Shown here piece by piece: positions 18,532 to 55,464 of a DNA stretch of 64,000 nucleotides. Every line of letters starts with the position of its first letter. Position 1 is the first letter of the stretch. The stretch lies in NCBI RefSeq assembly GCF_009363655.1, contig NZ_CP045393.1, positions 186,001 through 250,000 on the forward strand, written 5' to 3'. The translations under genes were made by a program, and so were the position numbers. Origin of the DNA: Roseovarius sp. THAF27. GTDB taxonomy: Bacteria > Pseudomonadota > Alphaproteobacteria > Rhodobacterales > Rhodobacteraceae. Below the pieces are notes generated by a model. That model was not told the DNA's origin. It saw only the letters and a program-made list of their open reading frames with translations, and did not search any database.

Positions 18532-19649
18532 AGCCCGCACCGCTGGCCGGGCTGAAGGTCGTCGAGCTAGCCCGAATCCTGGCCGGCCCCTGGGCCGGGC
18601 AGGTTCTGGCGGACCTGGGCGCAGAGGTGATCAAGGTGGAAAGCCCCGCGGGCGACGATACGCGCCAGTGGGGGCCTCCGTTCATCGAGCGTGACGGCGA
18701 CCGCTCGGCCGCCTATTTCCATTCGTGCAACCGTGGCAAGCAGAGCGTCACGGTGGATTTCCGCACCGGGGCGGGACAGGCCCGTGTCCGTGAGCTGGTG
18801 GCGGAGGCCGACATCCTGATCGAGAATTTCAAGGTCGGCGGTCTGGCGAAATACGGGTTGGATTACCCGAGCCTTGCGACAGTGAACCCGGGGTTGATCT
18901 ATTGCTCGATCACCGGGTTCGGGCAGGACGGGCCCTATGCGGGCAAGGCCGGGTATGACTATATCATCCAGGGCATGTCGGGGCTGATGAGCATGACCGG
19001 CGATCCCGAAGGCCAGCCGGTGAAGGTGGGCGTGGCGGTGACGGATATCTTCACCGGCGTCTATGCCAGCACCGCGATCCTGGCCGCATTGCACCAGCGG
19101 CAGGCGACGGGCAAGGGCCAGCATATCGACATGGCGCTTCTGGATACGGCGGTGGCGGTGACCGCGAACCAGGCGATGAATTATCTGGCCACGGGCACGC
19201 CGCCGCAAAGGCTGGGCAACCAGCATCCGAACCTGTCGCCCTACCAGGTGTTCGAATGTTCGGACGGTTTCCTGATCGTGGCGGTGGGCAACGACGTGCA
19301 GTTCGGGCGGTTCTGCGACGTGCTGGGCGCGACGGACGTCAAGGCGGCGCCGGACTATGCCACCAATGCCGACCGGGTGGCGCATCGCGATGCGCTGACA
19401 GAGGCGCTGACCGGGTACACCAAGGGGCTGAGCAAGGCCGCGTTGCAAGCCGGGTGCGAGGCGCAGGGCGTGCCGGTGGGGCCGATCAACGACATGGAAG
19501 AGGTATTTGCCGATCCGCAGGTCGTTGCGCGGGGGCTGATGGTGGAGGTTGACGGGGTGCCGGGCGTGCGCAGCCCGATGCGGTTTTCCGATGCGGATCT
19601 GTCGCTGGGACGCGCCTCGCCGAAGCTGGGCGAGGATGACCCGGCGTGA
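18528..19649 (+). CDS. CaiB/BaiF-type CoA-transferase (family III)
   Basis: 373 residues of the class III CoA-transferase family, which moves CoA between acyl groups and a carboxylate. Family marks are GLKVVELARILAGPWAGQVLADLGAEVIKVE at the start, CNRGKQSVTVD, and AGYDYIIQGMSGLM with Asp144 as the probable nucleophile. Substrate unknown; relatives act on carnitine, oxalate, succinate or 2-methylacyl-CoA. Overlap with the DsbA-like gene suggests one transcript, though the functions are unrelated. Confidence 0.88.
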   Translation: MKPAPLAGLKVVELARILAGPWAGQVLADLGAEVIKVESPAGDDTRQWGPPFIERDGDRSAAYFHSCNRGKQSVTVDFRTGAGQARVRELVAEADILIENFKVGGLAKYGLDYPSLATVNPGLIYCSITGFGQDGPYAGKAGYDYIIQGMSGLMSMTGDPEGQPVKVGVAVTDIFTGVYASTAILAALHQRQATGKGQHIDMALLDTAVAVTANQAMNYLATGTPPQRLGNQHPNLSPYQVFECSDGFLIVAVGNDVQFGRFCDVLGATDVKAAPDYATNADRVAHRDALTEALTGYTKGLSKAALQAGCEAQGVPVGPINDMEEVFADPQVVARGLMVEVDGVPGVRSPMRFSDADLSLGRASPKLGEDDPA

Positions 19650-53927: not shown

Positions 53928-54311
53928 TTACGCGTTTGCGCCCGACTTGGGCTTGTAGTTGGAAACCTCTGCGATCCGGGCCGACTTGCCGCGGCGCTGG
54001 CGCAGGTAATACAGCTTGGCGCGGCGAACGCGGCCACGGCGTACGACTTCGATGCTGTCGATGTTGGTCGAGTAGAGCGGGAACACCCGTTCCACGCCTT
54101 CACCGAAGGAAATCTTGCGTACGGTGAACGAGCCGGCGATGCCTTCGCCGTTCTTGCGGCTGATGCAGACGCCTTCGAACATCTGCACACGGCTGCGGGT
54201 GCCCTCGGTCACCTTGAAGCCGACGCGCACGGTGTCGCCGGCCTTGAAATCGGGGATGGTTTTCCCCAGTTCGGCGATTTGTTCCGCCTCGATTTCAGCG
54301 ATCAGGTCCAT
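53928..54311 (-). CDS. rplS: 50S ribosomal protein L19
   Basis: 127 residues from ATG 54311 ([17 protein letters not shown], the usual start). A GTG three codons upstream is in frame but not needed. Core [29 protein letters not shown] and [23 protein letters not shown] are conserved. It is separated from trmD by 355 bases that include three contiguous palindromes, unlike the tight spacing in many bacteria. Confidence 0.97.
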
Positions 54312-54587
54312 CTGATCCACTCCTATGTTGCTTGCGGTTGTCCCGCAAAGGTGATGCGCGGCCTAGAGAGCTCCTGGTCTTCTATCGGGTCCACTGGGAA
54401 GTGCCCGCCGGAGGTCAGGTCGTCATGTCTTTTTCTCTGCGCTGCGTGCCGGGCGGGACGGGTGCCGAAGAAAGCAGGCCCTTCGTGCCAAACAAACAGG
54501 TCCGGACGACTCGGTCGAGCCCCGGACGGGCGGTGTATAGGGGGAAACGGTGTGTCGATCAAGAGCAGTGTTGAGCGCGGGGCGGAA

Positions 54588-54655
54588 CCGTTTTCTGCGC
54601 AGAAAACGGGATAGAAAATACGTATTTTCTATCGCGGAATTTGCGCAAATTCCGC
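54588..54655. repeat. Three contiguous perfect palindromes
   Basis: 54588-54609 (22 bp, arm CCGTTTTCTGC), 54610-54633 (24 bp, arm GATAGAAAATAC) and 54634-54655 (22 bp, arm GCGGAATTTGC). They abut with no spacer. All three are exactly self-complementary, and have A+T-rich arms with short G+C ends. They start 11 bases after the trmD stop, in the space before rplS; no T-run follows on either strand. Confidence 0.95.
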
Positions 54656-54666
54656 TGGCGCGGGGG

Positions 54667-55464
54667 TCAGTCGTCGCGCTTTGAAAGTGCGCTCCACAGA
54701 TCCGGCCGGCGCTGTTTTGTCAATTCCTCGGACTTGGCCTTGCGCCACTTGGCGATCTCGCCGTGGTGGCCGGACATCAGCACGTCGGGGATCTTGCGCC
54801 CCTGCCATTCGGCGGGGCGGGTGTACTGGGGATGTTCGAGCAGGCCGTCGGAGAAGCTTTCCTCCTCGGTGGAGGCCTCGTTGCCCAGGACACCGGGCAG
54901 AAGGCGCACGGTCGCGTCGATCATGGCCTGCGCGGCGAGGTCGCCGCCGGTGAGGACGAAATCGCCCAGCGAGACCTCCTGAATGTCGTAATGCTCGATG
55001 ACGCGCTGGTCGAGGCCCTCGAAACGGCCGCAGATCATCGTCACGCCGGGGCGGGTGGCCCAGTGGCGGGCCATGCCTTGGGTGAAGGGCGTGCCGCGCG
55101 GGCTGAGGTAGACCAGCGGCGCGCCTTTGGGCGCACGCGGCAGGGCGTGGTCGAGGGCGCGGCCCATCACGTCTGCCCGCAGGACCATCCCCGCGCCGCC
55201 ACCGGCGGGGGTGTCGTCGACGTTGCGGTGCTTGCCCTCGCCGAAACCACGCAGGTCGATCGTGTCGAGTTGCCAAAGATCGTCCTTCAGCGCCTTGCCG
55301 GTCAGGCTGTGGCCCAGGATGCCGGGAAACGCGTCGGGCAAGAGGGTGATGACCTGTGCCGACCACGCCCGGGCGAGGCGTTCGGGGCCGTCCATCAGGC
55401 TGCGCGGTTTCAGCGATGCGGTGATCGACTTGCGACCGTGGGATTTCGAGGCTTTGTCGGACAT
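54667..55464 (-). CDS. trmD: tRNA (guanine37-N1)-methyltransferase
   Basis: 265-residue SPOUT methyltransferase that makes m1G37 and prevents frameshifting. The knot region includes YLSPRGTPFTQGMARHWA, MICGRFEGLDQRVIEHYDIQEVSLGDFVLTGGDLAAQAMIDA. ATG 55464 precedes a 23-residue Lys/Ser-rich N-terminal addition (SDKASKSHGRKSITASLKPR) before the usual start. Downstream of a sulfotransferase-like gene rather than rimM. Confidence 0.96.
   Translation of the reverse strand: MSDKASKSHGRKSITASLKPRSLMDGPERLARAWSAQVITLLPDAFPGILGHSLTGKALKDDLWQLDTIDLRGFGEGKHRNVDDTPAGGGAGMVLRADVMGRALDHALPRAPKGAPLVYLSPRGTPFTQGMARHWATRPGVTMICGRFEGLDQRVIEHYDIQEVSLGDFVLTGGDLAAQAMIDATVRLLPGVLGNEASTEEESFSDGLLEHPQYTRPAEWQGRKIPDVLMSGHHGEIAKWRKAKSEELTKQRRPDLWSALSKRDD

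Follow-up and report, generated by a model that had tools for sequence, protein, structure and literature searches.

A triple-hairpin array between trmD and rplS of Roseovarius sp. THAF27 is one copy of a dispersed, REP-like repeat of the Rhodobacteraceae

Three perfect palindromes joined end to end between two genes of a bacterial chromosome raise the questions of what kind of element they form and what this element might do at such a place. In Roseovarius sp. THAF27 they are located between trmD and rplS, within a stretch of 64,000 nucleotides which was analysed as a whole and is referred to below as the window. Re-reading of the sequence and a script both recovered the abutting palindromes of 22, 24 and 22 bp that had been described in an earlier note on this DNA; they occupy positions 54588–54655 with a spacer of 0. 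Their arms are CCGTTTTCTGC/GCAGAAAACGG (54588–54609), GATAGAAAATAC/GTATTTTCTATC (54610–54633) and GCGGAATTTGC/GCAAATTCCGC (54634–54655), and the view that the three units are not duplicates of one was upheld. Perfect even-centred palindromes whose arms reach 8 bases or more number five in the window; arms of at least 10 occur in the trio alone, and the other two palindromes have arms of 8 and 9 bases. On the basis of the window's base composition, with bases taken as independent, 0.035 palindromes with arms of at least 11 and 2.8 × 10−15 joined trios are expected per window, in agreement with the earlier judgement that a chance origin is very unlikely.

Both neighbouring genes are encoded on the minus strand, and the array is therefore read in the order H1 (22 nt, 54655–54634), H2 (24 nt, 54633–54610) and H3 (22 nt, 54609–54588). 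Along the transcript, the stop codon of trmD (54667–55464, minus strand; NF000648/TIGR00088) is followed by 11 nt, H1 (GCGGAATTTGCGCAAATTCCGC), H2 (GATAGAAAATACGTATTTTCTATC), H3 (CCGTTTTCTGCGCAGAAAACGG), 267 nt and rplS (53928–54320, minus strand; TIGR01024). The products of the upstream and downstream cistrons, TrmD and ribosomal protein L19, both score above the curated cut-offs. Each hairpin is documented by direct reading, by the script and by the stem coupling described below. The 68 nt are predicted to fold as RNA into three hairpins (−30.7 kcal/mol, z −6.6) and to adopt a stable fold as a DNA strand as well (−23.6 kcal/mol, z −7.95).

The array is not confined to this place. When the trio and its surroundings (161 bases) were compared by blastn with 60 relatives, nine genomes including that of THAF27 matched, all from one genus, and many of the matches were limited to the ca. 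67 bases of the trio. A covariance model, R1, was built from an alignment of 30 copies (A1) and scored the element at 54588–54655 (minus strand) with 97.1 bits as its sole match in the window at E ≤ 5. In the THAF27 genome R1 produced 71 matches at E ≤ 1, both strands counted, and ca. 28 distinct places by hand count at E ≤ 10−3, all on the 4.2-Mb chromosomal contig. Matches were obtained in 51 of 84 Roseovarius genomes at E ≤ 0.01, in very uneven numbers per genome, and in 77 of 395 genomes (70 of 351 genera) of the family at E ≤ 10−3, with 12 candidates scored per genome. From a class-wide sample of 387 genomes two matched, that of THAF27 and one of the same family, while the 381 genomes of other families yielded none; the family-wide matches are thus not noise. 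Recurrence of the trio as a set, the test fixed beforehand in the earlier note, was accordingly found, in place of the lone, unconserved copy that would have spoken against it. In a census of 400 kb of the chromosome all eight trio palindromes were intergenic by our own gene calls. The Rfam families contained no match to the element, neither for the window at gathering thresholds, which returned tRNA and ffh elsewhere in it, nor for eight element loci at E ≤ 1, and an 84-base query carrying Roseovarius letters only found no match in plasmid and phage collections. The trio at trmD|rplS is one copy of a dispersed repeat that extends throughout the family Rhodobacteraceae. At trmD|rplS itself, the best-matching named L19 locus, that of Roseovarius atlanticus R12B, carries the trio at the same place, and over 37 trmD–rplS loci (the window and 36 of 80 named loci) the matches of R1 were limited to the window, R. 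atlanticus and a metagenome-assembled genome of Roseovarius (L048, 30 bits).

The detailed analysis was based on 161 copies from 45 genomes, comprising 23 from THAF27 (of the 28 places), 80 from the rest of the genus and 58 from other genera. They represent a selection among the high-scoring matches listed and do not include the earlier copies of genomes G006 and G012, a copy at a contig end (L136), one identical with the array L153 (L161) and one on a short locus (L189). The arm letters outside Roseovarius are under-sampled because R1 was built on Roseovarius copies.

Of the 161 copies, all found with a three-hairpin model, 153 are resolved into three hairpins and eight into two, the latter being excluded from the loop, wobble and arm-letter counts; the spacers between hairpins are mostly 0–3 nt long. 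Rows of two and of five hairpins also occur, three being present in most copies found with R1. By eye, five hairpins in a row were seen between convergent genes of THAF27 (L153, G000:C1:2573300–2573417). In A1, 94.2% of 812 stem cells are paired and 13 of the 28 pairs are changed on both sides; the covariation score amounts to 0.266 compared with 0.122 for shuffled and at most 0.103 for slid alignments. The coupling of the bases was analysed position by position on distinct 16-base centres (63 for H1, 68 for H2 and 53 for H3). Positions 3–8 from the hairpin centre are paired to 92–100% and position 2 to 66–79%, compared with 28–39% after shuffling. In contrast, the innermost pair is uncoupled in H2, weakly coupled in H1 (.65 versus.55 shuffled) and moderately in H3 (.60 versus.42, a value reached by 0 of 500 shuffles), although 223 of 379 4-nt loops had looked palindromic before position-wise shuffling. 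Moreover, 75 of 459 hairpins have loops of odd length. As the stems covary, the inner bases are weakly coupled and the loop length varies, the units are true hairpins with small loops and not duplex dyads. The three RNA hairpins with tiny loops envisaged in the earlier note are in line with this coupling and with the predicted RNA and DNA folds, whereas its dimeric protein bound at three sites becomes less likely; a dyad-symmetric protein site was rejected as the main reading on account of the weakly coupled or uncoupled innermost pair and the odd-centred hairpins. An excess of G-U pairs, as a wobble signature of selection at the RNA level, was sought in the co-directional copies and was absent: on the transcribed strand of 82 copies 10 G-U pairs stand against nine A-C pairs besides 2202 Watson-Crick pairs, and in 57 independent sites seven against five besides 1522. 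Since G-U and A-C are equally rare, RNA and DNA are not separated as the selected form.

The position of the element relative to genes was derived from gene calls of a home-made codon-usage script for 159 copies, two of the 161 not having both neighbours called. These copies lie between 89 co-directional, 59 convergent and 11 divergent gene pairs, compared with 160, 36 and 41 background pairs at least 20 nt apart in an even 400-kb sample of the THAF27 chromosome (chi-square p = 5 × 10−7; 4 × 10−6 on 110 independent sites); the pairs within the element loci, element pairs included, number 178, 67 and 56. The element favours convergent and avoids divergent gene pairs. Its co-directional copies are located at a median of 11 nt from the stop codon and 85 nt from the next start codon, and 70 of 89 lie within 30 nt of the stop codon. 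Their orientation is neutral (47 versus 42), and near-palindromes do not need a fixed one. For THAF27 alone, the distribution of 17 co-directional, four convergent and two divergent copies is near background and too small for a class bias; 13 of the 17 co-directional copies are closer to the stop codon.

Orthologous copies could be compared between THAF27 and three relatives (G006, G066 and G035, with nine, eight and seven pairs). The identity of the element is.966,.906 and.914, respectively, that of the flanking intergenic DNA.856,.719 and.671 and that of the flanking coding DNA.905,.853 and.888, a comparison biased insofar as orthologous copies were detected because they still match. Where orthologues were compared in this match-selected manner, the element is better conserved than its intergenic flanks. 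In 21 of the 24 pairs (three were gapped or 69 bases long) the stems contain 36 single and 12 double changes, and all 12 double changes lead from pair to pair.

Conservation is accompanied by turnover of sites. The trio at dnaN|recF, a junction whose genes were named on the THAF27 copy, is found in seven sampled genomes of four genera, and R1 arrays, including two-hairpin forms and one double pair, are present at 12 of 59 DnaN loci, of which 30 stem from the genus (82 of 83 genomes matched) and 29 from other genera (31 genomes searched, THAF27 included); two close relatives of THAF27, G066 and G012, lack the array there. THAF27 also contains the trio between ybeY and a gene that resembles phoH below the cut-off; of 16 relatives three have the trio at this PhoH-like|ybeY site, four two hairpins, three a GC-rich hairpin element and one nothing, five being unreadable. 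Behind a weak lookalike of an acyl-homoserine-lactone synthase gene (below cut-off), the trio is present in THAF27 and four of 16 relatives, missing in six and unreadable in six, a pattern for which acquisition within the R. atlanticus group is the best explanation. A further site is empty in THAF27 but holds hairpins in another Roseovarius and in another genus. The same site can thus hold different hairpin numbers, other hairpins or nothing in relatives, and the element is not indispensable because some sites are empty. Two other gene-end elements, one of the GCCTCCGGCGGGAGTATTTTT type and one of the CCGGGGGC..GCCCCCGGACCCCCGGGATATTT type, were also noticed at dnaN|recF (L308, L321, L327) and PhoH-like|ybeY (L371, L374); in several genomes they fill junctions that hold the hairpin array in other species.

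In most of the other genera compared, copies are most alike within a genome. In five of six such genera, the gap-aware identity among copies of one genome is.77–.87, while comparison with any other genome yields.79 at most and in each case less than within the genome itself. The exceptions are G312 (.74 within,.74 with G016 and G182) and THAF27 (.75 within,.78 with G016). A first, ungapped distance was replaced by the gap-aware version because unequal loop lengths shift the register and exaggerated these dialects. Even at the shared junction dnaN|recF, the copies of G431, G493 and G375 are closer to other copies of their own genomes (.78,.89 and.83) than to their orthologues (at most.68,.84 and.82), whereas the orthologues are nearer (.97–1.0) in the Roseovarius genomes G075, G008 and G032, and the THAF27 copy has no preference.

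In a broad sense the element is REP-like, as it consists of short palindromes with many extragenic copies near the 3′ ends of genes. REP and BIME elements of enterobacteria and pseudomonads, associated with RAYT, are described as short dispersed extragenic palindromes, often in groups (PMC2817692), a description that also applies here; the Rhodobacteraceae element, however, is composed of three distinct hairpins in fixed order and not of one unit alternating in orientation. The Y1 transposase domain (PF01797, Y1_Tnp) was found in none of 18 element-rich genomes, in two of 14 genomes without R1 matches and in five of 14 control genomes, and a Y1 (RAYT) transposase was consequently rejected as the mover. 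A conserved GTAG/GTGG head is absent from the consensus and appears in the 10-nt edge windows of just 22 of the 161 copies; neither the transposase nor the head of RAYT-linked REP/REPIN elements is thus seen in these genomes and copies. Visual inspection of 30 copies with flanks of 40 nt brought no target-site duplication, as the mark of a MITE, to notice, and the empty sites are too diverged to reveal a clean insertion.

The closest published analogue is Br-REP1 of Bradyrhizobium and Rhodopseudomonas, which combines three palindromes in one repeat that forms three RNA stem-loops, was originally noticed where the 3′ UTRs of convergent genes overlap and has many intergenic copies distributed unevenly among species (PMC5082802). 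Its published central stem, CCGGAAT..ATTCCGG, is similar to H1 (PMC5082802), but the central palindrome CCGGAATCTCGAGATTCCGG has no exact match in the THAF27 genome. This core has 13 exact matches in another alphaproteobacterial genome, where the eight copies inspected by eye show it as the central hairpin within a longer imperfect inverted repeat, a layout different from three equal abutting hairpins. A doubled Br-REP1 query gave only partial matches to 11 plasmid records, 10 of them haloarchaeal, which are without bearing. The RIME and A/B/C palindromic mosaics of Sinorhizobium meliloti are likewise alphaproteobacterial intergenic mosaics of several palindromes, a resemblance at the level of their description. 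The open-access literature provided no description of such a repeat in Rhodobacterales, subscription papers being mostly outside this search. The element is a variant of the known REP-like repeats which differs in layout from Br-REP1 and has no detectable Y1 transposase.

Further repeats were seen beside it. Two single perfect palindromes of the THAF27 chromosome with arms of 15 and 16 bases, both intergenic and centred on TTCGTACGAA (L210:13951–13980 and L220:9708–9739), possibly represent a further kind of hairpin at gene ends in THAF27; a second hairpin, ATTATTCGTGCGAATAAT, stands a few bases behind the one in L210. A dispersed repeat of ca. 170 bp with inverted CGCGCGATCGCCAGACCG-like parts (L024:4536–4717, L022:1342–1511, L220:11492–11664 and 18750–18921) looks like a MITE because it is extra DNA at L024 (G006) relative to THAF27.

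What the array might do is suggested by its neighbourhood. We infer, with a probability of roughly 0.55, that it functions as a REP-like gene-end element whose tandem hairpins behind stop codons shield the ends of the upstream mRNAs. A row of hairpins in RNA would form a barrier to 3′-to-5′ exonucleases and act as a decay terminator comparable to the intercistronic hairpins of the puf and maltose operons. Transcription would largely read through the row, and after a downstream cut the exonucleases would halt at the hairpins, so that the upstream cistron, here trmD, might outlast the downstream one. The copies may have been spread and homogenised by a route other than a Y1 (RAYT) transposase. 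Intercistronic hairpins of E. coli operons are described to stop 3′-to-5′ exonucleases, whereby the upstream cistron survives longer (PMC5927463), REP elements to block 3′-to-5′ decay (PMC5082802, introduction) and the puf mRNA of Rhodobacter to be processed stepwise by RNase E (PMC6238624). In G157, from another genus of the family, two-hairpin forms are present at rpoB|rpoC (L394) and rplL|rpoB (L395); its rpoB and rpoC genes run off the ends of the loci and thus fall short of the cut-offs for full-length genes. These read-through sites, together with the position behind stop codons, are the reason for favouring the intercistronic-hairpin mechanism. For trmD and rplS themselves, we infer the link between the structure and the half-life of the mRNA; the different mRNA stability of the two genes suggested in the earlier note fits the place of the element behind stop codons and inside operons. 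The intercistronic puf hairpin of Rhodobacter capsulatus was reportedly presented, by title, as an mRNA decay terminator (by Chen in 1988 and Klug in 1987). It resembles the element in lying between cistrons and belonging to the same bacterial family, a likeness at the level of description, and is to our knowledge the hairpin of a single operon.

The enrichment of convergent pairs could also be understood if the element were a U-less, direction-neutral terminator or a Rho-assisted pause site which closes genes from both sides, and some relatives indeed have GC-rich hairpins, several with a T-run, replacing the array at dnaN|recF and PhoH-like|ybeY. An intrinsic terminator, however, is composed of a GC-rich hairpin followed by a T-run, and the element does not have this form. 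No T-run was found in the sequence behind the array at trmD|rplS, as remarked in the earlier note, which had concluded that the array is no ordinary terminator, and T-run terminators follow the element at just three of 158 ends. Compared with the remaining gene ends in these loci (8 of 240, p = 0.54), this is not significantly rarer, and the T fraction is.166 compared with.177 at the control ends. An apparent exclusion at dnaN|recF had suggested that the array replaces T-run terminators; this idea was abandoned in view of the flat wider count. T-run flags were raised at 15 of 47 DnaN loci without and four of 12 with the array, and in the latter four the sequence shows nothing but the hairpins of the array itself and its T-rich arms. 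Another comparison, of 35 of 341 THAF27 gene ends with three of 156 copies, was dropped as the windows were of unequal length. A strong terminator is unlikely because RNA polymerase must read through the sites between rplL, rpoB and rpoC of G157, where strong termination should be harmful. Altogether, we consider a terminator or pause site rather improbable.

Somewhat less probable still is an element acting at the DNA level, in the form of extruded or single-stranded hairpins or as sites of a nucleoid protein or gyrase where supercoils collect at gene ends. It would agree with the neutral orientation, with ca. 99% Watson-Crick pairs in the parsed stems without G-U excess (the parse itself penalising mismatches), with the stable DNA fold and with the likeness of copies within the genomes of most other genera compared. 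On the other hand, the weakly coupled or uncoupled innermost pair and the variable loop length argue against a dimer on duplex DNA, and no finding points to the protein. The patchy presence in the genus (51 of 84 genomes) and the gain at the synthase-like site are features expected from a selfish miniature repeat that serves no host function and is tolerated behind genes as the least harmful place; but conservation above the flanking intergenic DNA with compensatory changes, and occupation of the same junction, dnaN|recF, across genera make this explanation quite unlikely. More speculatively, and with about the same small chance that we grant the terminator, the arm letters might be lineage dialects of a gene-end code read by a co-evolving trans-acting factor, with housekeeping operons swapping such modules one hairpin at a time to tune neighbouring genes. 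Such a factor might be a protein binding RNA or DNA hairpins, or a non-Y1 mobiliser, and would homogenise even the copies at the shared dnaN|recF junction.

Roseobacters are abundant marine bacteria. In the genome of THAF27, the repeat marks ca. thirty gene ends, including those at trmD|rplS and dnaN|recF, and in a relative those at rplL|rpoB|rpoC. Sister species provide natural on/off sites, by which the role of intercistronic hairpins becomes testable. As no Y1 transposase has been detected for this REP-like family, the manner of its spread and of its near-perfect upkeep is itself a testable question.
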